Positions 6,958-39,898 of a stretch of DNA of 59,809 nucleotides are shown one piece after another; the stretch's first letter is position 1, and each line of letters begins with the position of its first letter. Source of the stretch: Planctomycetota bacterium (GTDB lineage: Bacteria > Planctomycetota > UBA8742 > JACQVU01 > JANLHZ01). The translations under genes were made by a program, and so were the position numbers. The stretch spans positions 1 to 59,809 of the forward strand of contig JANLHZ010000171.1 in assembly GCA_024653775.1 (NCBI GenBank), in the 5' to 3' direction. Under the pieces are notes generated by a model. It did no database searches and was not told where the DNA came from. It saw only the letters and a list, made by a program, of their open reading frames with translations.

Positions 6958-9855
6958 ATGGGACTTCGGATAAACACAAATTCCAGCGCGCTTTCGACCC
7001 TGTACCGTCTTTCGCAGACACAGGCGCGAATCGGGAAGTCCCTCGAAAAGCTAGGCACCTCACTCGGAATCAACCGCGCCGCGGACGATCCGTCCGGACT
7101 GACGATCAGCGAGCAGCTTCGCGCGCAGGTCGCGGGAGTGCGGGTGATGATCAAATCGACCCAACGCTCGATAAACATGATCCAGACCGCGGAGAGCGCT
7201 TTGAACGAAATCTCCGGGCTTCTTGTCGGCATGCGCGAGAAAGCCGTGAGCGCGGCGAACTCGGGAGGGTCCGGACGGGAACAACTCGAGGCGGAACAGT
7301 TCGTCATGGACAAGATGATCGCGTCCATCGACCGTATTTCGCAGACCACGAGATTCGGGAGCAAATCCCTTCTGAATGGCGCGCACCGCACCGAGACCGA
7401 CACCACGGACGGCATCGAAAGCGTGATAATCCGCACCGCGAATTTCAATTACGAAACCACGCGCACCTTTAACGTAAGGGTTTTGCAGAACGCGGAAAAG
7501 GCGCAAATCGACGTCAGCGCGAACAATTCTGGTACGACCCGCCTTCGAATCACCGGAAACCTCGGAAGCGAAATCGTCACCGTCGAAGGCGCGCACACCG
7601 TCAGTCAGATGGAGGACATCGTCAACGATCTGAGCGCGTTCACCGGAGTCGACGCCGCGAACGGAAAATACCAGAGCCAGACGTACGGCTCGAAGTCGTT
7701 CGTCCGTGTAGAACTCGTCAGCGGCGACGATTACGCCGGGCCGGACGACGCGCAGGACTACGGCAAGGACGTTATCGCGTTCGTAGGCGGCTCGCTCGCC
7801 CAAGGCGACGGTCTCAAAGCCACGGTTTCGTCGAGCCAGTTCGACGGCGACGTCTACTTCGCGCCGGGCGCGTCGTACCTCCAGCAAATCCAGCTTACGA
7901 AACACACGATCGAACTAAACCCCGGACTCGGCCCGAACGCGATCACTATCGCGCTTCCGTCGCTTAGCGCCGGAAATCTGGGGCACGTGACTTCGACGCG
8001 TCAGAGTCTTCCGGACGTGAGCACATCCATCCCCGCGACGAACTCCGGCTCGAACTCCGGCCCAGGCCAAGGCGAAGGCGTGCTCACGCTCAATAACATC
8101 CCCGCGGACCTGAACGGCGCAACCTACGGCGCGTACCTTCTCGTCCCGAGCGACAACTACACCATCGACTTCAGCTTCGACAACAGCGAAGCAGGCGTGA
8201 ATCTCGACGGCGCAACGCTTTCCATCACCGCGGACAGGACCGTAAACGGCGTCGCAGCCGGGGGGAACCTTGTGACTGTGCCTCCCGTCTACGCGAGCGA
8301 TACAGACAGCTTCAGCCTCGCGGTGACTGCGAGCGACGGAGGGACGATCAAACTCACCGCTTCAATCAGCGACACGAACGGCGATCTCGTGGCGGAGCGC
8401 ACATACACCTACAGCTCGAAAGCCGCGACGGCGTCCGATACTCCGTTCGAAGACCTTCCGGGCGCGTCACAGGATTTCCGGCTCGTGTTCGACCGCGACC
8501 AGGTGAATATAAACATCGGCGCCGCGACCATCGCGGCAGGCGCCAACGGCGAGGAAGACTTCTTCGAGGACCTCCAGCTATGGGGACTCCGCAGCGCGGG
8601 AGGCGACGCCGCGGACGCAAGCGCGCTCGCCCAGATCAAGACCGCGATTTTTGGCAAGCTGAACACGTTCTACGCCGGGGCGAACGTCAACTTCGGCGAA
8701 GAGACGATGGCGAACGTCACCGCGGACTGGGGCGCGACGGAGTACGATTCACAGGGCGGAGGCTCCGACCCCGGCTACAGCACGATGGCCGTCGGGGGCG
8801 CGAGGCTCGTCAGCGGCGCGGTCGATTCGTCCAGCTACGTCATCGGCTACGCCCAGACAGACCCCGGCGCGAACAACCTTCAGAACAACAACACGGCGGA
8901 AATCCTGGGAGTGTTCCCGGCGCGATTGTTCCAGCTCGAAAAAAGTTTCAATGACGCTGCGTTTCGGGCGATCTTCGACGAGTTCGCGCCGAGCCTGGGA
9001 GGCACCGCCATAGGCGAATGGACCTCGCTTGGAGGAGTGACGGATAACGATCTGCTTACGGGGACTCCGCCCGGCGCGCCGGACGAAACCGCGAGACTAA
9101 GCGCGTTGAACTCCGCGATTCAGGCGTACGCGAACGCCGCGGGCGCGATCATCGCCCACGAGGTCGGGCACTCCCTCGGACTCGTCCCGAACGGTGCGCC
9201 TCCAAAGGGATTCTTCGGAGAATCGAGCGATTTCAGCGGCTCGACCTCCGCGCACCTGAATTACAACTCGAACGGCATCGTCGGAGTGATGAATCCGAGC
9301 GCGTCATGGAGCGCGATGCAGGGAACCGCGATTCAGTTCAATCCTCTCGACAAGGCGTACTTGCAGGGGAAGCTCCTTTTCAACCAGAGCTATACCGAGG
9401 GCGCGCTTCCGCTCTTCGCTAATTACGAATGGAACGCGTTCCAGACCGGCGCGCCGAAACTCGCGGCAAGCGAAACGTCTCTCGCCGACCTCGACTATCA
9501 AACCGCGCTCGCGGAAGGCGTCTCAGGAAGTCTCTCGGACCTGAAATCCGGCGGCCAGTACAACATCTTGGACGATCCGTACAGCGCCATGTCGATCATC
9601 GACGAGGCGCTTTCGCAGGTGAACGCGCTCCGCGGATTCCTCGGCGGACTGACGAGCAAGCTCCTCCAGCCGATGATCGAGTCGCAGACGGTCCACGCGG
9701 AAAACCTCACGAAGAGCGAAAGCACGATCCGCGATCTCGACTACGCGGCGGAGGCGACGAACCTCGTCAAGCAGCAGGTGCTGTTCCAGTCGAGCGTAAG
9801 CATACTTCAGCAGGCGAATCTGATCCCGCAGACGGTGCTTTCGCTGCTCGGATAA
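6958..9855 (+). CDS. flagellin with inserted metalloprotease-like domain (flagellinolysin-type)
   Basis: A 965-residue flagellin; ordinary ones have about 270-500. Residues 1-145 form the D0/D1 filament core (INRAADDPSGLTISEQLRAQ, SINMIQTAESALNEI) and about 870-965 the C-terminal core (STIRDLDYAAEATNLVKQQ). The central insert has beta-rich segments (about 160-480), then a zincin-like region with HEVGHSLGL (H734, E735, H738) and a Met-turn-like GVMNP (M778). This matches the published idea of proteolytic flagellins, but the residue where a classic metzincin has its third His is Pro744; the next His is H766. AAAGGTGAG upstream supports the ATG. It would be exported and built into the filament. 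No other flagellar gene is nearby. Confidence 0.9.
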   Translation: MGLRINTNSSALSTLYRLSQTQARIGKSLEKLGTSLGINRAADDPSGLTISEQLRAQVAGVRVMIKSTQRSINMIQTAESALNEISGLLVGMREKAVSAANSGGSGREQLEAEQFVMDKMIASIDRISQTTRFGSKSLLNGAHRTETDTTDGIESVIIRTANFNYETTRTFNVRVLQNAEKAQIDVSANNSGTTRLRITGNLGSEIVTVEGAHTVSQMEDIVNDLSAFTGVDAANGKYQSQTYGSKSFVRVELVSGDDYAGPDDAQDYGKDVIAFVGGSLAQGDGLKATVSSSQFDGDVYFAPGASYLQQIQLTKHTIELNPGLGPNAITIALPSLSAGNLGHVTSTRQSLPDVSTSIPATNSGSNSGPGQGEGVLTLNNIPADLNGATYGAYLLVPSDNYTIDFSFDNSEAGVNLDGATLSITADRTVNGVAAGGNLVTVPPVYASDTDSFSLAVTASDGGTIKLTASISDTNGDLVAERTYTYSSKAATASDTPFEDLPGASQDFRLVFDRDQVNINIGAATIAAGANGEEDFFEDLQLWGLRSAGGDAADASALAQIKTAIFGKLNTFYAGANVNFGEETMANVTADWGATEYDSQGGGSDPGYSTMAVGGARLVSGAVDSSSYVIGYAQTDPGANNLQNNNTAEILGVFPARLFQLEKSFNDAAFRAIFDEFAPSLGGTAIGEWTSLGGVTDNDLLTGTPPGAPDETARLSALNSAIQAYANAAGAIIAHEVGHSLGLVPNGAPPKGFFGESSDFSGSTSAHLNYNSNGIVGVMNPSASWSAMQGTAIQFNPLDKAYLQGKLLFNQSYTEGALPLFANYEWNAFQTGAPKLAASETSLADLDYQTALAEGVSGSLSDLKSGGQYNILDDPYSAMSIIDEALSQVNALRGFLGGLTSKLLQPMIESQTVHAENLTKSESTIRDLDYAAEATNLVKQQVLFQSSVSILQQANLIPQTVLSLLG

Positions 9856-19635: not shown

Positions 19636-19668
19636 ACGTGCCGGGCACATTCAAAGTGACCGGCACGT
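19636..19668. repeat. GTGCC-GGCAC palindromic repeat (copy 3)
   Basis: Arms ACGTGCCGGGCACATT and AAAGTGACCGGCACGT; it lies 45 bases after copy 2 and directly before the BNR-repeat gene. Confidence 0.65.
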
Positions 19669-19688
19669 GCAATTTTGAAAGGACCAAC

Positions 19689-20795
19689 ATGTCAGATCGA
19701 ATTCTCGCGGCTACACGTAAAGGACTTTTTACAATCGAACGCGCCAGCTCCGGCTGGAAGATCGCCAACGCGCAGTTCCTCGGCTCGACCGCCGGACTGG
19801 TTCACCGCGACGAGCGCTCAGGCGAGCTATACGTAGCACTCGGGCACGGGCACTTCGGCGCGAAGCTGCACAAGTCGACCGACGACGGCAAAACGTGGGT
19901 GGAAATCGAATCTCCCAAGTATCCGGAGAAGCCGGAGGGCGAGGAAGACAAGGACGGGATGGGCCGGGACATCAAGTGGGCGACGGAAGCTATTTGGGCA
20001 ATGGCGAGCGGAGGCGCGGACCAGCCCGGACTGCTGTGGGCGGGGACGATTCCCGGCGGGCTGTTTCGCTCGCAGGACGCTGGCGCGAGCTGGGAGCTTA
20101 TGCGCAACCTTTGGGACAATCCGCTTCGCAAGGAATGGTTCGGCGGCGGCGCGGAGGGCGCGGGCATCCACACGATTTGCGTCGATCCGCGGGATTCGAA
20201 GCACGTCGTGATCGCGGTTTCCTGCGGCGGCGTATGGGCGACGTCCGACGGGGGCGAAAGCTGGGAACTCCGCGGCGAGGGAATGCGCGCGGAATTCATG
20301 CCCGAGGACAAGATCCACTATCCGAACACGCAGGACGCGCACCAGATCGCAATGTGCCGCGCGAATCCGGATACGATCTGGCTGCAGCACCACAACGGGA
20401 TTTTCCTTTCCCGCGACGCCGGGCGGAACTTCACGGAGATCGCGAATGTGCAGCCGAGCGTGTTCGGCTTCGGGGTGGCGGTGCATCCGAACGATCCGAA
20501 CCGCGCGTGGTTCGTCCCGGCGCGCAAGGACGAATACCGCTACGCGTGCGAAGGGCAGGTGGTCGTGACGCGCACCCGCGACGGCGGCAAGAGCTTCGAG
20601 GTTCTGCGGGAGGGGCTCCCGCAGGAGCACGCGTACGATATCACGTACCGCCATGCGCTAGCGATCGACGACTCGGGCGATCGTCTTGCGTTCGGAACGA
20701 CGACGGGCAGTCTTTGGGTCACTGAAAACCAGGGCGATTCGTGGCATACCGTCGGCGAACACCTGCCGCCGGTGTACTGCGTGAGGTTTGCGTAG
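19689..20795 (+). CDS. BNR/Asp-box repeat beta-propeller protein (sialidase-like fold)
   Basis: A 368-residue soluble protein with recurring Asp-box motifs typical of BNR propellers: KSTDDGKTWVEIE, RSQDAGASWELM, ATSDGGESWELR, LSRDAGRNFTEI, RTRDGGKSFEVL and VTENQGDSWHTV. The opening DRILAATRKGLFTIER matches a widespread WD40/YVTN/BNR-like family annotated as exo-alpha-sialidase, but true sialidase catalytic residues are not evident. There is no signal peptide, so it should be cytosolic. The ATG at 19689 follows AAAGGACC; the frame is open upstream through a palindromic repeat, which I exclude. It lies 134 bp after the sulfur carrier gene. Confidence 0.85.
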   Translation: MSDRILAATRKGLFTIERASSGWKIANAQFLGSTAGLVHRDERSGELYVALGHGHFGAKLHKSTDDGKTWVEIESPKYPEKPEGEEDKDGMGRDIKWATEAIWAMASGGADQPGLLWAGTIPGGLFRSQDAGASWELMRNLWDNPLRKEWFGGGAEGAGIHTICVDPRDSKHVVIAVSCGGVWATSDGGESWELRGEGMRAEFMPEDKIHYPNTQDAHQIAMCRANPDTIWLQHHNGIFLSRDAGRNFTEIANVQPSVFGFGVAVHPNDPNRAWFVPARKDEYRYACEGQVVVTRTRDGGKSFEVLREGLPQEHAYDITYRHALAIDDSGDRLAFGTTTGSLWVTENQGDSWHTVGEHLPPVYCVRFA

Positions 20796-21067: not shown

Positions 21068-23404
21068 TTACGGCGAAGGCGGGCTGAACCGAAGAACGCG
21101 GTTGTTCTTCGAATCCGATACCCACATCGTTCCGGAGTAGATCGTGACGTCTGCCGGAGTGTTGAAGTTGTTCTGAGCCGCGGCGTCGCCTTCGCCCGTG
21201 GCGACCGGGCTTGCCGGGGCGGAAACCATATCCGCGAAACCGAGCACGTTTTGCGCTGGCTGGAGATCGATCGACGGAACCACCGCGTAGATCATAACTC
21301 TGTGGTTTCCAGTGTCGGCAATCGCGAGGTGGGTACCGTCTGAGCCGACGCCCCAGGGCTGGAACAGATAGTAGCTTGTGTCGAGTCCGGTCGATCCGGT
21401 CTTGTTCGCGGTGGTTTCGACCGGGGGATTTTCCTTCGCGCTTGGCGACGCCTGCCCGATGACGGTGTTGGCGCTTCGCGAGGAGGTTGGAGCCGGGTTC
21501 CAGATGAGGAGGCGGTTGTTCGCCGAATCTGCAACGAACAGACGTGAGCCGTCGGTCGCGATCTGGTGCGGATCCTGGAAGACCGATCCGCTGAGGCCGC
21601 TGAGCAGTCCTCCGTTCGCCGCGGCCATGCCCCAGTCGTCCTGACCGATCTGGAAGTCGGGCATGATCGGAGTGGGTAACTGCGTCGACATATCTGCGTT
21701 GACGATGTTGACGATGTTGTACCCGACGACGCGGTTGTTGCCCTTGTCGCAGACGTATACCCAGTCGCCGATGCGGACGACGCTATACGGCTGGTTCAGA
21801 TCGCCTTTGTCCGAGGTCGCAAGCCCGACAAGCTGGAGATCGTTCGTTCCGAGGGCCCACTTCGCGGCCGCGCCGTTGATGTCGGGAACGCCGTCCCAGA
21901 TCATTACGCGGTTGTTCGCGGTGTCGGCAACGTAGAGGTAGCTGCCGTCGAAGTAGACGCCGTTCGGGTTCGAAAGTCCGCTCGTTCCAGCGACGACGCG
22001 GCCGTTAAGCTGCGCGTTAGAGCCGCGGTTGGCGGTGGTCTGCGAGAAATCGTTCTGTCCGAGGACGAGCGCGTCGACGTTCTTGTCGAAGTTTTCGACG
22101 ACGTTCGCCGTCGGGAGGTTCCTGAAGATCACGACGCGGTGCTGCTGGCTGTCGGCGATGATGAGCCTGACTCCGTCGGAATAAATTCCGGTTGGGAAGT
22201 TGAGCTTGCTCTTGGGCGCGGTTCCCGGGCTGTCGCCGTAGCCGGTGACGTAGTCGGGCTGGCCTACGACCTGATCCGCGTTCATTCCGTTGGTGACCGG
22301 CTCGTTGTTGACGGAGATGAGCAGCGCGGAATCCGTTCCGATCGGAGAAACCGCCGGCTTGATCGCGTAGTTGAAGTTTTGTGCGCCTGTGATGAGTCCT
22401 TCGTTCAGTGCGCTGGGCGGGGTGCCGTTGTTCGCGGCGATGATCCGGATTTCGATGTTCGAGCCGGCGTTGATGTACCCGTGAACGACCGAAGTTCCGG
22501 GCGTGCCGACGGACGCGGCGGGACCGAAGGTGCATCCACCGAAGTCGGTGATCGTATCCCACACGAAGACGTGCTCGACGCCGCCGCCGGGAGCCGCGTT
22601 CAGCCCGGTGGTTCCCTGACTTCCGACGTCTACCGCTTCAGTCATATCGAACCAGCCGTTCGCGTCGACATTCGGGCTTTGGAGGTCGTAGGCGCCGCCG
22701 ACGTCACGCCACTGCGGGCGGATGGAGATGTTGTCGATTCCGGAGTGCGAGGTCTGAGTGAGCGTGTAGCGAATGCGGACGTTTCCGCGGTAGGCCTGCC
22801 CGTTCGTCGGCGTGACAAACGCGATCACCGGAGCGGAGGGCACAAGGCTCAGCACTGTGATCGAAAATTCCCGCATCGAGGAAAGTCCGGTAGTCGGTTC
22901 GTCCAGACGGAGCGTGAAGCTGTACACGTCCGGATCGGCGATGACCGCGGCGTTCGCGGTGTCGAGGCCGATTTCGAAAGTCGCGCGTCCGTCCCCGTCG
23001 GGATCGTAAATGTCGAAGGTGATCAATCCTTCGGAGTTCGCCGCGACCTCCTGCAAGGTCGGCGTGAGCGAATCCGAATACGCATAGAACGCGAGCCCCT
23101 GCGGCAGCCTTCCTGAGATCACGGTCGCGGTGATCGGAAAGCGCGCGCTCAGCACGGTGATGACCCCCGTGTAGCTAGGCGCGGAACCCGTGCCAGACGC
23201 CTTGAACGCTATTGGCAGGCTAGAAGTTTCGAACGAAGGCGCACCCGCGTCGACCTGAACCACCGACGCGTCGAGAAACTTGGTCTCGTCGCCTGTATTG
23301 CAGGCAATGGTTGTAAGCAGCGCCGTGAGCGCAAGCAGAATCAGCGGAAAGGCTCCAAAGCCTTGGTGTTTCGCGCTGGACTTCAATACTTTTCTGATAG
23401 CCAT
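21068..23404 (-). CDS. NHL-repeat lipoprotein
   Basis: A 778-residue protein with a long hydrophobic leader and a lipobox-like TTIAC (Cys near 35), so probably a lipoprotein. Residues about 50-350 look like Ig-type or fibronectin-like beta domains (SFTLRLDEPTTG, VTPTNGQAYRGNVRIRYTL). The C-terminal half is an NHL beta-propeller with repeated blades: NFPTGIYSDGVRLIIADSQQ, NPNGVYFDGSYLYVADTANN, NQPYSVVRIGDWVYVCDKGN, DPHQIATDGSRLFVADSANN, QPWGVGSDGTHLAIADTGNH and NTPADVTIYSGTMWVSDSKN. GGGAGG lies nine bases before the ATG. NHL propellers bind proteins or ligands; a cell-surface role is likely. No enzyme motif is seen. Confidence 0.85.
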   Translation of the reverse strand: MAIRKVLKSSAKHQGFGAFPLILLALTALLTTIACNTGDETKFLDASVVQVDAGAPSFETSSLPIAFKASGTGSAPSYTGVITVLSARFPITATVISGRLPQGLAFYAYSDSLTPTLQEVAANSEGLITFDIYDPDGDGRATFEIGLDTANAAVIADPDVYSFTLRLDEPTTGLSSMREFSITVLSLVPSAPVIAFVTPTNGQAYRGNVRIRYTLTQTSHSGIDNISIRPQWRDVGGAYDLQSPNVDANGWFDMTEAVDVGSQGTTGLNAAPGGGVEHVFVWDTITDFGGCTFGPAASVGTPGTSVVHGYINAGSNIEIRIIAANNGTPPSALNEGLITGAQNFNYAIKPAVSPIGTDSALLISVNNEPVTNGMNADQVVGQPDYVTGYGDSPGTAPKSKLNFPTGIYSDGVRLIIADSQQHRVVIFRNLPTANVVENFDKNVDALVLGQNDFSQTTANRGSNAQLNGRVVAGTSGLSNPNGVYFDGSYLYVADTANNRVMIWDGVPDINGAAAKWALGTNDLQLVGLATSDKGDLNQPYSVVRIGDWVYVCDKGNNRVVGYNIVNIVNADMSTQLPTPIMPDFQIGQDDWGMAAANGGLLSGLSGSVFQDPHQIATDGSRLFVADSANNRLLIWNPAPTSSRSANTVIGQASPSAKENPPVETTANKTGSTGLDTSYYLFQPWGVGSDGTHLAIADTGNHRVMIYAVVPSIDLQPAQNVLGFADMVSAPASPVATGEGDAAAQNNFNTPADVTIYSGTMWVSDSKNNRVLRFSPPSP

Positions 23405-33332: not shown

Positions 33333-33628
33333 GCTGGGAAGAGAAATTTAGCTCTACCCAGAACGTATGGGTCCCCAATTTTGATACCCTGAAAAAAAAA
33401 TCTAAAGTTGTTTTGAATATTAGGGTTGCATGGTCCGACTAGTAGAAAGTGAAGAAATAAGATTATTCTTACAGTACGCTTCACATAAGCTAAAAATTAT
33501 AATCAAAAAGAGGACTTTTTAGCTTTTCTGATCTTTCTAATCGTCATAATCTGGGACAAACGACTTTAAGGGGAAACGGATTTTCCTGAAGTCTAATTTG
33601 TGGGATCACTACGCCAGGGAGGGCGACA

Positions 33629-36600
33629 GTGGCTCTATATCTTTCACAATCAATTAATTCGCACGGGACCCTGAACGCGCTCCGGCAGACAGTCCGGAGA
33701 GAGAATAATTCTCTTGAGCGCCTCGGGAGCGGTTTGCGCATAAATCGCGCGGCGGACGACGTTTCAGGCATGGTTGCTTCGGAGACGCTTCGCGCACAAT
33801 CGGCGAGTCTGTTCCGCGCGAACAAGAATATTCAGAACACTATAAACCTAGCGTCGCTTGCCGAGGGCGCGATGGGGGAAGTTGCGGATGCGCTCGTAAA
33901 TCTGCGGACGTTGGTAATAAAGTCGAAGAATCTCGAAGATCAGACTTCCAGCGAATTCCAATCGAATTCAGCCGAATTCAACGCGCTCCTGAACTCAATA
34001 GATCAGATTTCCAGGACTACGCGCTACGGCAGCAGGAACATTTTCACAGAATACGTTCCCAGGACGGTTACGCTCACCTCCGACCGAGGCGATACGGGAA
34101 TCGACGGAATCACCACGCCGCTTCGAAGCACGATCGAAAACGGAGAGCACACGATCACGACGAGGCAGCAGGCCATCGTTTCCGCGGTGGACGATACCAC
34201 GAACAACACCAGCGAAGACGGCGTAGTCATAAACGCCGCGACGTATCTCGACACGGACACGTTCACGTCTGCGCCGCAGACGGTGTTTTTCGCCGATACG
34301 GGCGCGGACGGCACGGCGGATTTCGCCGGGTACCTCGGCGCAGACAACAGCGCGTATTATGCAGAGACCGTTCGAGGCGAAGCCAGCGCCGACGGGGACG
34401 ACCAGGATGAACTCCTGGCGGCTCTCGCGGGCGCGCCAGTGGCGGGGACGTTCCACGATACCCGCGCGGGTGGCTACGTTTACGAAACCGGAAACGAGGT
34501 TTATTCGAACTCGGGAGCGCTCGGCGTCGCCAACTTCACCGGAACGACTACGAATGTGACCGCTCATCGAATCGACGAGCAGAGCGGTCAGTTCGTCTAC
34601 GATACAGATTCGTCCGGAGCGCCTTCGCCAACGATCGCGACCGGTTCGAACGTGCTTTCACTGACGAATCGTTCCGGAACGGAAACGGTCGTCGCGACTC
34701 TCGCGAACGGAAACATCGTCGAGTACAACGGCACCACGGGCGCGACAATCGCGACATACAGCGCGGCAAATCTTGTGGCTCAGGGCGTATCGGACAACCT
34801 CGTCGGACTGGCGCAGATAGCGGGCAACAACTTCGTCGCGGTCGAGTCTAGCGGAGCGAACACAGGACGTCTCGTGACTCTCACTCTCGATGGCGCGGGC
34901 ACCGCAACCGTCACCGGAGAGTTCGTCATCGACGCGAGCGCGAGCATTTCAGGTTCCAGCTTCCCGAATACGTCGGGAGGTGCCGTAAACCTCGACGGCA
35001 TATCGAGTATTTCCGCGATCAACGACACTGGAAGCTACACGATCACCCTGAAAAACGAGGCGGGAATCGACAATTCAGTCGAATACTCGTACACGGAAAT
35101 TGCGACGGGTCAGAACGGTAACGGCGCTGGCACCGTGAGCCATCTCGGAGTGAACAACACGAGTTTCGACGGCGTGCAGGTCGATATTGCGAACACGCCG
35201 ACGAACGGCGCGCTCCAGAGCGCGGCGGGCGCGCAGACGTTTATCGCCGGCGGCGGCATGAAGTTCGACATCAACCTCGACGGCACGGGCGCCCAGGAAG
35301 TTTATGTCACCGGCGCGGCGGGAACGGGCGCGGCAACCGCGGCGGCGATCCAGACGGCTGTGCGCGCCCTCGGCGCCACGGAAACCTTCACGCAGTTCAC
35401 TGCGACGTTCGCTGGCGGGCAGTATCTGTTCACCTCCGGAAGCGAAGGTCTCGAGAGCGGCGCGCTTTCGAGCGTCGTCGTGACGCAGAGCGCCGCGGTG
35501 CCTTCGCAGGGAACGTTCACCGGCGCGGGAGCGGGGACGACGGCGGCGATTTCGAACGCGAGAGTTCAGATCGACGTCGACGGTGCGGGCGCGCAGGAAA
35601 TAAGGTTCAGTTCCGCGGGAGGATCGTTCGCGGTAGTGGCTAACGACCTCGAGACAGCCATCAACGCCGCGTTCGGCGCGGGTTCGGTCACGGTTACAGA
35701 CGCCGGCGGAGGCGTCTATGAGATAACGAGCACCACGACAGGGTCGTCGTCTTCCGTCGCTCACACGGCTCTCGCCGCGGATTCAGGGTTCTACACGGGC
35801 GCGGGGGTCGGTACTACCGCGGCAATTTCGAACGCCAGGCTTCAGGTCAACATCGACGGAGCGGGCGCGCAGGAAATCAGGTTCAGTTCCGCCGGAGGAT
35901 CGTTCGCAGTCGTTGCGAACGACCTCGAAACCGCGATCAACGCCGCGTTCGGAGCTGGCTCGGTAAACGTCCAGGACGCGGGCGGCGGGGTCTACGAAAT
36001 CGTAAGCACTTCGACCGGATCGACCTCCACCGTGACCCACGCGGCGCTCGCCGCGGACAGCGGATACTTCACAGGCGCCGGCGCGGGAACGACGGGCGCG
36101 ATTGCAAACGCACGTCTCCAAGTCAACGTCGACGGCGCGGGCGCGCAGGAGATCAGGTTCAGTTCCGCGGGCGGCTCGTTTGCCGTCGTTGCGAACGATC
36201 TCGAAACCGCGATCAATGCGGCCTTCGGCGCGGGTTCGGTAAACGTTCAGGACGCGGGCGGCGGCGTTTATGAAATCGTCAGTTCCACTACCGGGTCCAC
36301 CTCGACCGTGACCCACGCGGCGCTCGCGGCGGACTCCGGGTTCTTCACAGGCGCAGGCGCGGGAACGACCGGCGCGGTCAACGCTCACTTTTCGGTCAAT
36401 ATCAATGGCGCGGGCGCGCAGACTGTAACGGTGAATACCGCGGGCGGATCGTTCGCCACGGTTGCCGCGGCGCTCGATTCCGCTATCGAGGCGCAGTTCG
36501 GCGGCGGGAGTGTCACGGTTACAAATGCCGGCGGCGGAGTGTATCAGATAAACAGCAGCGCCACGGGTTCGACGTCCACTGTGACAGTCGCGTCCGTCGC

Positions 36601-39600
36601 CGCGACCGCGGGGGACTACGCCGGAGGCGCGGCGGTTGCCACGGGATCGCAGATCCGTGCGAAATTCAATCTGAACGTCGACGGCGCCGGGCTTACCGAA
36701 GTGACTCTCGACACCGCGGGCACGGATTTCAACACCATCCGCGGAGACCTCGAAGCTGCAATCCAGGGACTGGGCGGAGCTTTCGCGGGCGCTACCGTGT
36801 CTGACGCCGGCGGTGGAGTCCTTCAGATCACCAGTGGGACTACGGGAAGCTCATCGACCGTTGCAGTCGCCGCAGGAACGCCCACCGGAGGAACGAGCGT
36901 CAGCGGCGCGGGGGCGGGAACCACCGTCACCGCAGGCGTGGACGACCAGCTCACTATCGACGTCGACGGCCTAGGCCCGGTTCAGATAACGCTCGGAACA
37001 CAGGGAACCGGCGCGGCGATCGCAGCCGCGATCGAAGCTCAGGTCCTCGGTCTTGGAGGCGGCTACGCGGGGTTCACGGCGAGCTGGGACGGCAGTCAGT
37101 ACACGCTGACCAGCGGGTCTACCGGCACGAGTTCCAGCGTCGTTGTCACGGCGGGAACAAACGACGCCACGGCGATACTGCTTCTCGGCGCAGGTAACGG
37201 CGGCACCGAAGACGTCGGCTACGACGAGGGTCTCGCGGCGCTCAATCTCGCCGGTGGAACCGCGACTCAGGGCCTCGACGACGGGATGGGTGCCGGAGTG
37301 TTCAATCTTACCGGCGGAACCGCGACGCAGGGCGCGGACAACGCGAGCGCGGCTGGAATTCTGAACCTCACCGGCGGAACCGCGACTCAGGGCGCGGATA
37401 GCGGCAGCGGCGCGGGAATCCTGAACCTCACGGGCGGAACCGCGACTCAGGGCGCGGACAGCGCGAGCGTCGCGGGAATCCTGAACCTCACAGGCGGAAC
37501 CAAGGCCGACGGTATCGACGACGGATTCGACGTCTATAACTTCGACGCGGGCACGACTGTGACTACCGCGCTCGACATCGACAGTCAGGGCACCGACTCG
37601 TCATTCACCGTCCAGATCGACGGTCAGCTTAACGGAAACGTCGACAACATCGTCGATGTCGCGTATTCGAGCGGAACTCTGTACGCGATCAACACCGGAA
37701 GCAACACGCTCTGGTCGATAAACACCGCCACCGGAGTTTCGACCGCGGGTAACAACCTCGCCGCTGCCGCGCTTCGCGGAGGCGCGATCGCGATTGCGGG
37801 CGGCATCACGGGAATCGCGAAGGACAACACCCTCGGCGGCAACGTCCTTCTCATCTCCGACGGCGCGAACAACCTCCATCGTTATGACGTTGCGTCCAAC
37901 ACGATTCTCGATACACTGCAGGCCGGCGCCGGAATGAACGCGATAACCTTCGGCGATGGCGAAAACTTTAACGGCGAGCAGGCCTTCGGATACCGCGCCA
38001 GCGGCGGCACGATTACGAGGATCGACCTCCGCGACGCCGGGTATACCTCCGGAGCGTCGAGAGTCACGTCCGACTTCGGGTCGGAGCGCAACGTGAAGAA
38101 TGCCGCGGGGTTCTCGTTCTACGAAGCCGACGGAGGCAGCGGCTCCTACGATCTGCGCATCAGCGCGACGGACGCGACGAGCGGAACGAGGACGATCGTG
38201 GCGACCAGCGGCAACTTCGCGACGACCACAATGGACGCGACAAGCGCCAGCGGAAGTTTCCGCGGTCTGTACGCCAACGCCGCTAGCACCACCGTCACTC
38301 TTATAAACAGCGCGGGAGTCGATCAGGCTGGAGGCGCGATCGCAGGCTACGGCGCAAGGTTCAGTTCCACCGGAACCCACTTTGGCGTCTTCAGCGGCAA
38401 TACCGCCAACGAAACCCTTCAGATCAGACGTTCATCCGACGGCGCGCTCGTCTCGTCGATCAGTAACGTCGACGCGACCAAGGGATTCTCGTTCAACACG
38501 ACGGACTCGCAGATCGCGTTCGTTGGCGGTTCCGGCGCGACCATCGGCGCGGGCGCGCTGAAGAACTATGACGTCAGCGCGGGAGTCGCGACTGCGCCGG
38601 CTCATCCGAATCCGACGATCAGCGGGACGTTCTCCCCGGTCTACACCCAGCCCGGCCCGGCGTCCGGACCAACCATCGACGATACGAATACAATCACAGT
38701 CGAGACGTTCACCGTCGTCATCACCGAGGATCACGACGGCGCCGACAAGTTCACGATCACAGGCAGCGTTTCCGGACTGCAGAACAACGCCCTCGACGGA
38801 AACGCCTACGGATTCGTGGGTTCGGAATTCGTCACCGAGGGTAACGTCGTCAACGGGGTCACGCTCGGCGGAGGACTTCGGTTCACGCTCAGCATGGACG
38901 GTCAGTACGTCGACGCCACCACAGGCGGGGGCAGCGCGTCCACAATCACCATCGACACCGACACACAGCTCGAAACCAGGCTCGATAACGGACCAACCGT
39001 CGTTTTCGAGGAAGGCGACATCATCCAGCTCGAAAACGAGTTCGGCGGCACCGTAGTCGTCGACTTCGCAAACGCGATCCCGAGCAACGAAAACGTCGTG
39101 TCCTTCAAGGTGTTCCCGACGAAAACCGTCCAGATGGGAACCGAGAGCCATCCGTCGGACGCGTTCAACGATCTCATCTTCCAGCCGATGGACACCGACC
39201 GACTGAGGCTTTCCGAAATCACTCTCGCGGACGACTACGATTCCTCGATCTCAGGAGTCACGAGCGACGATACGCTGATCTCGAATAACCTCGTCCTCAT
39301 CGACGGCCCCAGCGGCGTCGGAGTCGGCGGCGGATACATCACCGCAGATAACGAGACCTTCACCCTGACGTTCAACGCCAACGGCACCTACGACGTCTAC
39401 GGCTCGAAATCGAGGACGATCAGCGAAGGAAACGTGTTCTCGATCGACAACACGTCCGTCAATCTCGGCTCGATGACGGAAGACGAACGCAAGGCGTACA
39501 TCGAAAGCCACTTCACCGAGAATCGAATCAACATCCGCGGCATCGAGTTCACGCTCGCGGGTAATCCGACCGCGGGATCGACATTCAGCTTTACTTTCGA

Positions 39601-39898
39601 AGGCAAGGGAAGCCTGCAAAGGATCGACGAGGCGATTCTGGACATCTCCGGGCGCAGAGCAGCGGTTGGCGAGTCGATAAACGCGCTCTCTTCGCTTCTC
39701 TCTTCGCAAGAGCGTCACCTCGATAACCTCATCAAATCCGAAAGCTCGATCCGCGACCTCGACTACGCCGAGGAAAGCGCGTCCCTCGTTCGAAGTCAGG
39801 TTCTGTCGGCAAGCGCGCAGCAGATGCTTCAGCAGGGAATCAACATGTCGAACAGCATCATCGACTTTATGCGCACCTCGATGGGCGTTCTCGGGTAG
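33629..39898 (+). CDS. giant flagellin (2089 residues) with repeat-built central region
   Basis: N-terminal residues 1-135 are clear flagellin D0/D1 (SLERLGSGLRINRAADDVSG, NTINLASLAEGAMGEV); residues about 1990-2089 are the C-terminal core (SESSIRDLDYAEESASLVRSQ). About 1850 residues between them replace the usual variable domain. Seen there: propeller-like beta repeats (about 285-480), 92-residue units of flagellin/hook IN type with DVDGAGAQEIRFSSAGGSF and NDLETAINAAFGAGSV (four close copies near 629-995 plus weaker ones to 1180), five 20-residue units with LTGGTATQGAD (1205-1298), and another propeller-like region (1311-1660). The start is GTG with AGGGAGGGC upstream. No protease motif is seen. 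Chaperone genes such as fliS are absent locally. Confidence 0.92.
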   Translation: MALYLSQSINSHGTLNALRQTVRRENNSLERLGSGLRINRAADDVSGMVASETLRAQSASLFRANKNIQNTINLASLAEGAMGEVADALVNLRTLVIKSKNLEDQTSSEFQSNSAEFNALLNSIDQISRTTRYGSRNIFTEYVPRTVTLTSDRGDTGIDGITTPLRSTIENGEHTITTRQQAIVSAVDDTTNNTSEDGVVINAATYLDTDTFTSAPQTVFFADTGADGTADFAGYLGADNSAYYAETVRGEASADGDDQDELLAALAGAPVAGTFHDTRAGGYVYETGNEVYSNSGALGVANFTGTTTNVTAHRIDEQSGQFVYDTDSSGAPSPTIATGSNVLSLTNRSGTETVVATLANGNIVEYNGTTGATIATYSAANLVAQGVSDNLVGLAQIAGNNFVAVESSGANTGRLVTLTLDGAGTATVTGEFVIDASASISGSSFPNTSGGAVNLDGISSISAINDTGSYTITLKNEAGIDNSVEYSYTEIATGQNGNGAGTVSHLGVNNTSFDGVQVDIANTPTNGALQSAAGAQTFIAGGGMKFDINLDGTGAQEVYVTGAAGTGAATAAAIQTAVRALGATETFTQFTATFAGGQYLFTSGSEGLESGALSSVVVTQSAAVPSQGTFTGAGAGTTAAISNARVQIDVDGAGAQEIRFSSAGGSFAVVANDLETAINAAFGAGSVTVTDAGGGVYEITSTTTGSSSSVAHTALAADSGFYTGAGVGTTAAISNARLQVNIDGAGAQEIRFSSAGGSFAVVANDLETAINAAFGAGSVNVQDAGGGVYEIVSTSTGSTSTVTHAALAADSGYFTGAGAGTTGAIANARLQVNVDGAGAQEIRFSSAGGSFAVVANDLETAINAAFGAGSVNVQDAGGGVYEIVSSTTGSTSTVTHAALAADSGFFTGAGAGTTGAVNAHFSVNINGAGAQTVTVNTAGGSFATVAAALDSAIEAQFGGGSVTVTNAGGGVYQINSSATGSTSTVTVASVAATAGDYAGGAAVATGSQIRAKFNLNVDGAGLTEVTLDTAGTDFNTIRGDLEAAIQGLGGAFAGATVSDAGGGVLQITSGTTGSSSTVAVAAGTPTGGTSVSGAGAGTTVTAGVDDQLTIDVDGLGPVQITLGTQGTGAAIAAAIEAQVLGLGGGYAGFTASWDGSQYTLTSGSTGTSSSVVVTAGTNDATAILLLGAGNGGTEDVGYDEGLAALNLAGGTATQGLDDGMGAGVFNLTGGTATQGADNASAAGILNLTGGTATQGADSGSGAGILNLTGGTATQGADSASVAGILNLTGGTKADGIDDGFDVYNFDAGTTVTTALDIDSQGTDSSFTVQIDGQLNGNVDNIVDVAYSSGTLYAINTGSNTLWSINTATGVSTAGNNLAAAALRGGAIAIAGGITGIAKDNTLGGNVLLISDGANNLHRYDVASNTILDTLQAGAGMNAITFGDGENFNGEQAFGYRASGGTITRIDLRDAGYTSGASRVTSDFGSERNVKNAAGFSFYEADGGSGSYDLRISATDATSGTRTIVATSGNFATTTMDATSASGSFRGLYANAASTTVTLINSAGVDQAGGAIAGYGARFSSTGTHFGVFSGNTANETLQIRRSSDGALVSSISNVDATKGFSFNTTDSQIAFVGGSGATIGAGALKNYDVSAGVATAPAHPNPTISGTFSPVYTQPGPASGPTIDDTNTITVETFTVVITEDHDGADKFTITGSVSGLQNNALDGNAYGFVGSEFVTEGNVVNGVTLGGGLRFTLSMDGQYVDATTGGGSASTITIDTDTQLETRLDNGPTVVFEEGDIIQLENEFGGTVVVDFANAIPSNENVVSFKVFPTKTVQMGTESHPSDAFNDLIFQPMDTDRLRLSEITLADDYDSSISGVTSDDTLISNNLVLIDGPSGVGVGGGYITADNETFTLTFNANGTYDVYGSKSRTISEGNVFSIDNTSVNLGSMTEDERKAYIESHFTENRINIRGIEFTLAGNPTAGSTFSFTFEGKGSLQRIDEAILDISGRRAAVGESINALSSLLSSQERHLDNLIKSESSIRDLDYAEESASLVRSQVLSASAQQMLQQGINMSNSIIDFMRTSMGVLG
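35515..36615 (+). repeat. four tandem about 276-bp coding repeats in the giant flagellin
   Basis: Units begin near 35515, 35789, 36064 and 36340 with GGCGCGGG(A/G)-type starts and share long runs such as GGATCGTTCGC and GACCTCGA. Spacing is 273-276 bp (about 92 codons). Weaker units extend to about 37170. Close DNA-level identity suggests recent duplication. Confidence 0.85.
37241..37520 (+). repeat. five tandem 60-bp coding repeats in the giant flagellin
   Basis: The words CCGGCGGAACCGCGACTCAG (with minor changes) recur at exactly 60-bp steps from 37241 to 37481. Each unit encodes a 20-residue Gly/Thr/Ala-rich segment. Such perfect phase suggests expansion or contraction by slippage or recombination. 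Confidence 0.9.

Follow-up and report, generated by a model that had tools for sequence, protein, structure and literature searches.

A predicted 2089-residue giant flagellin of Planctomycetota with tandem repeats and putative propeller-like regions in its insert

The window analysed here, a stretch of 59,809 nucleotides forming one contig of a 5.4-Mb, 331-contig draft genome, carries at positions 33629..39898 of the forward strand an open frame of 6.3 kb, hereafter P1, with 2089 codons free of internal stops plus the stop codon, a GTG start and, by direct reading, a Shine-Dalgarno-like GGGAGGG (33617..33623, +) located 5 nt upstream of the GTG. An earlier note on this DNA had placed a 2089-residue flagellin at 33629-39898, and its coordinates, strand and length were exact. 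The predicted protein (209 kDa) is acidic (pI 4.1) and devoid of cysteine; inspected by eye, it begins like an ordinary flagellin and shows no signal peptide. When the regions preceding the 11 flagellins of this genome, P1 among them, were scanned for sigma-28 and sigma-54 consensus sequences, the results were no better than those for shuffled sequences; that no known flagellar promoter motif was seen before P1 counts against the favoured reading given below.

Both ends of P1 were recognised as flagellin. The N-terminal D0/D1 filament core (residues 1-140; 33629..34048, +) matches Flagellin_N (PF00669) over residues 9-141 (E = 3e-21, 76.4 bits against a cut-off of 26.6) and PDB flagellins with E-values from 6.6e-23, and is followed by a post-D1 segment (residues 141-173; 34049..34147, +) that alignments indicate to be conserved among giant flagellins. 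The C-terminal D1/D0 core (residues 1995-2089; 39611..39895, +), divergent and with a slightly longer C-terminus, matches Flagellin_C (PF00700) over residues 1996-2080 (E = 1.9e-8, 34.9 bits, cut-off 23). About 1,854 residues lie between the end of Flagellin_N at 141 and the beginning of Flagellin_C at 1996, in agreement with the approximately 1850 inserted residues proposed before, and the total of 2089 aa with flagellin ends takes P1 beyond the 1,000 aa that define a giant flagellin. Among the NCBIfam models, P1 scored 97.4 bits with the polar flagellin model and 42.5 bits with TIGR02550 (FlgL), none of its scores reaching the curated whole-protein cut-offs, while the FlgL of the same genome showed the reverse preference (116 bits with the FlgL model). 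The assignment of P1 as FlgL was ruled out on this difference (97 bits for flagellin versus 42 bits for FlgL).

The core of P1 is recognisable and clearly diverged, especially at the C-terminus of D0: of 61 highly conserved D0/D1 columns, 38 are identical and 51 identical or similar, compared with 46-57 identical columns in other flagellins that this genome encodes. In place of the LIPQxVLSLL with which D0 ends, P1 has a different, slightly longer sequence. The core ends had been described as intact, which stands insofar as Pfam recognises both but calls for qualification as regards residue conservation and the end of D0. Given the diverged core residues, a standard D0/D1 packing of P1 is not assured. 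Since 38 of the 61 columns are identical against 46-57 in the controls, two readings other than a polymerising giant subunit, namely a minor component of ordinary filaments and an exported protein that does not polymerise, are kept alongside it and weighed below.

The Pfam scan of the insert segments gave nothing above cut-off between the flagellin ends. The best insert match, a CCL2 lectin-like hit to the glycine-rich repeats (0.0003, below cut-off), was taken as compositional, and the phmmer matches of the repeats to acylamino-acid-releasing enzyme (0.015-0.022) were judged likewise. At the DNA level, P1 carries tandem repeats with periods of 276 bp (3.1 copies, score 1020) and 60 bp (4.4 copies). 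Behind a linker defined by its position between recognised segments (residues 461-530; 35009..35218, +), profile search identified seven units of approximately 92 aa at residues 531-1192 (35219..37204, +), corresponding to the 276-bp period, and these are followed by glycine-rich repeats of 20 residues at residues 1193-1302 (37205..37534, +), corresponding to the 60-bp period; the two kinds of tandem repeats announced by the earlier note are thus both present. The last part of the insert, residues 1685-1994 (38681..39610, +), is a C-terminal beta module into which the D1 return segment falls; it was delimited by the alignment of homologues and is diagnostic for the clade described below.

Structure prediction of the segments, which the earlier note had suggested, was informative in part. 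The AlphaFold model of two approximately 92-aa repeats, with P1's own copies as the alignment, reached a pLDDT of 75.6 and gave a beta-beta-alpha-beta-beta-beta order for each unit, while the model of the second propeller plus C-terminal module, built from a two-sequence alignment, stayed at 34.8. The description of the insert as beta-rich is roughly right, except that each approximately 92-aa repeat is predicted to contain one long helix. A Foldseek search with the two-repeat model found no significant match (best E 0.14). The Flagellin_IN motif (PF07196) is present in five other flagellins of the same genome, and hhalign aligned the P1 repeats with these motifs at 36% probability, in register over the strands and the helix, while 20 column shuffles used as control all gave 0.58% or less. 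The P1 repeats differ from the motif in that they have no Pfam match, stand in seven tandem copies and carry an extra N-terminal stretch. The alignment is suggestive, rather than proof, that the approximately 92-aa repeats are Flagellin_IN-like modules.

Comparison of repeats 2-4 revealed about 44-49 synonymous versus 8-19 non-synonymous differing positions (dS about 1.2-1.5, dN 0.04-0.10, dN/dS 0.03-0.08), indicating that the P1 repeats are under purifying selection. This low dN/dS argues that translation of the P1 frame yields a product under sequence constraint and that the insert is not drifting. It also speaks against the reading of P1 as a degenerate or chimeric assembly product devoid of function, for which one could cite the 331-contig draft with repeats inside the gene and the break, likewise at a repeat, in the orthologue from G001, the other genome of the same order (recorded as a groundwater MAG of Planctomycetota, JACQVU010000331.1); but with a 6.3-kb frame free of stops, and an orthologue related at both ends in a separate metagenome assembly, such an artefact is highly improbable.

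Two segments of the insert had been called propeller-like, and they fared differently. The second (residues 1337-1684; 37637..38680, +) appears to be TolB-like at the family level: the profile of its five-member family matched, among PDB entries, TolB (6e-7), acyl-peptide hydrolase (0.0012) and dipeptidyl peptidase IV (DPP IV, 0.0032) and also designed propellers, and three of the five members gave matches to PD40. Unlike TolB and the WD40-like (PD40) propellers, the P1 region is embedded in a flagellin, and its own copy has diverged too far for a match to propellers by itself, so that the TolB match holds for the family only. On the profile of its homologues this region scored modestly higher than by chance, with 30.0 versus a maximum of 25.3 in 1000 composition shuffles, a test that is not specific since P1's own repeats, run as a control, score as high on that profile; for this reason the position within the family carries most weight. 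For the first region (residues 174-460; 34148..35008, +), also a divergent copy in P1, the best PDB profile match was the YjiK protein (E = 0.085), and its score on the homologues' profile was again modestly raised (35.1 versus a maximum of 25.3 in 1000 composition shuffles), values that weakly suggest a propeller-like fold. Further propeller-type proteins are encoded nearby, one with Sortilin/BNR repeats at 19638-20795 (+) and one with NHL repeats at 21068-23404 (-) of the window.

In order of segments, the P1 insert recurs in its homologues. The C-terminal module was strongly matched in 3 of 392 Planctomycetota genomes (P1's own genome, G001 and the distant planctomycetote G055), with two genes in each, and weakly and partially in two more planctomycetote genomes; within the class, it was found in both genomes of the order and in none of the 18 others. 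In a tree built from D0/D1 only, six giants, i.e., P1, its paralogue on contig C53, the orthologous partners of both in G001 and two proteins from G055, grouped together with 97% ultrafast bootstrap on a long branch, the pairs P1/G001 and C53/C515 each receiving 96%. The paralogue (contig C53, L019 5514-10679), which gives this genome two giant flagellins, measures about 1,660 aa when counted from the probable start, and its orthologue in G001 has an open frame of 1759 aa. In G001 the P1 orthologue is divided between two contigs that share an exact overlap of 113 bp, and it would be about 2541 aa long if they abut, a length that is provisional because the contig break falls inside a repeat. 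The approximately 92-aa repeats number seven in P1 against one or two in C53 and G055, and those of G001 are, by eye, related and more diverged. From these comparisons, P1 is placed in an ancient and rare planctomycetote sub-clade of giant flagellins, seen in few uncultured members of the phylum. In a phylum-wide flagellin survey the longest frame, among the matches listed, was 1553 aa; a planctomycetote flagellin with a frame of this length (G293, contig C99, L077) falls outside the P1 clade, so that giant size arose separately there.

Flagellin_N was detected at 12 places in the genome, representing 11 flagellins, P1 included, and one FlgL, which adjoins FlgK (identified by eye); FlhA (export gate) and FliS (chaperone) are each encoded once. 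The search for further flagellins proposed earlier was thus productive, and with 11 of them the cell could build mixed as well as separate filaments; the composite filament with the protease flagellin and the sheath-like layers put forward in the earlier note would be hypothetical arrangements. Five of the 11 have frames of 513-598 aa, and P1 could be a minor or position-specific component, for instance near the base or tip, that sparsely decorates filaments of ordinary 510-600 aa flagellins. The long D0/D1 branch and the altered core residues of the giants would be expected for such a specialised subunit, but both genomes of the order retain the two giant paralogues, each with its orthologue in the other genome, and this fits a dedicated filament too; we regard the minor role as a less probable alternative to a P1 filament. 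With a frame of 918 aa (L021 4350-7103, -), FlgL is unusually large in this genome, and hook-junction proteins may therefore be enlarged as well. Another flagellin, of 965 aa, is encoded at 6958-9855 (+) of the window, and its insert contains a metallopeptidase-like motif, HEVGHSLGLVPNG, and a turn-like stretch, VMNP; this flagellin matched neither the NCBIfam flagellinolysin model at 0.01 nor any PDB peptidase, and for this reason may be an independent protease-bearing flagellin.

The repeat array of P1 and the start of its 20-aa repeats were also found in a 5378-aa protein of the same genome (contig C17, 9176-25309; L042 9176 to L043 5309), P1 residues 641-975 aligning at 39% (7e-25) and residues 830-1276 at 38%. 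This protein starts, by eye, with a lipoprotein-like signal and contains Big (Ig-like), TIG and Lactonase-propeller domains and 12 FG-GAP stretches. Ig-like, TIG and FG-GAP are typical surface modules, and the signal and domain content make the C17 protein a probable cell-surface lipoprotein. Because P1 shares modules with it, the outer domains of flagellins may be drawn from a general pool of adhesin modules. The same sharing, together with the divergent D0 C-terminus, would suit a P1 that is exported by the flagellar apparatus and never polymerises, a large adhesin, released or kept at the surface, whose flagellin ends serve as export signals; such a protein would, however, hardly need a C-terminal core for the secretion signal alone, and both helical core ends are full-length and recognised as flagellin, which leaves this reading improbable.

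Giant flagellins of more than 1,000 aa, with thicker filaments and internal repeats, are already known (Thomson et al. 2018, PMC6248924): filaments measuring at least 30 nm go with the flagellins of Bermanella marisrubri (1,020 aa) and Oleibacter marinus (1,190 aa), and Planctomycetes are among the lineages listed, the advantage of such flagellins being called unclear (PMC6248924). P1 resembles them in its flagellin ends, in an insert that takes the length past 1,000 aa and in the duplication of internal modules, but it is about twice as long, and its insert carries IN-like repeats, 20-aa repeats and a TolB-like propeller; furthermore, the species of that study rely on one flagellin whereas the genome of P1 has 11. 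With flagellinolysins (Eckhard et al. 2017, PMC5595980; PMC7643111) P1 shares a folded non-flagellin domain between conserved flagellin ends, yet it was ruled out as one of them, as the HExxH motif is absent and the NCBIfam flagellinolysin model is unmatched. A literature search covering the top-ranking matches found no paper on propellers in flagellins. The architecture of P1 and its clade look new, while giant flagellins as such are known.

With the flagellin ends, the clade, the repeats, the purifying selection on the repeats and the family-level TolB-like propeller established computationally, we consider it fairly probable that P1 is a genuine giant flagellin that is exported and polymerises via D0/D1, its insert forming a thick brush-like shell for contact as well as swimming. 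P1 would most likely leave the cell unfolded through the flagellar type III apparatus and polymerise by its D0/D1 ends, and the insert of approximately 1,850 residues would then fold outside, in the order propeller-like region, stalk of IN-like repeats, 20-residue repeats, TolB-like propeller and beta module. In this way a whole filament, or part of one, would acquire an outer shell, very thick and brush-like, that might serve for contact with surfaces or other cells in addition to swimming. For a homopolymer of P1, a shell-volume calculation gave an estimated 38-62 nm, with Salmonella (24 nm) and B. marisrubri (30 nm) as calibration points and with a core radius of 6 nm, a rise of 0.48 nm and packing fractions between 0.18 and 0.5 as assumptions; together with the analogy to measured giant-flagellin filaments (PMC6248924), this estimate suggests that a filament, if P1 assembles, would be thick. 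A bolder version, which we hold to be rather unlikely, is that the clade builds a dedicated ultra-thick brush-like filament distinct from swimming flagella, in which the cassette shared with the C17 lipoprotein mediates filament-cell or cell-cell contact, i.e., a flagellin-derived adhesive organelle.

On the favoured reading as a genuine giant flagellin, P1 is a flagellin of approximately 2,100 residues (its relative in G001 perhaps 2,500) with an insert under selection. The clade offers a defined set for testing the limits of export, the thickness of filaments and the function of huge outer domains, and the combination of a conserved propeller with a variable number of repeats may provide a concrete lead on the advantage of giant flagellins, a question left open previously (PMC6248924).
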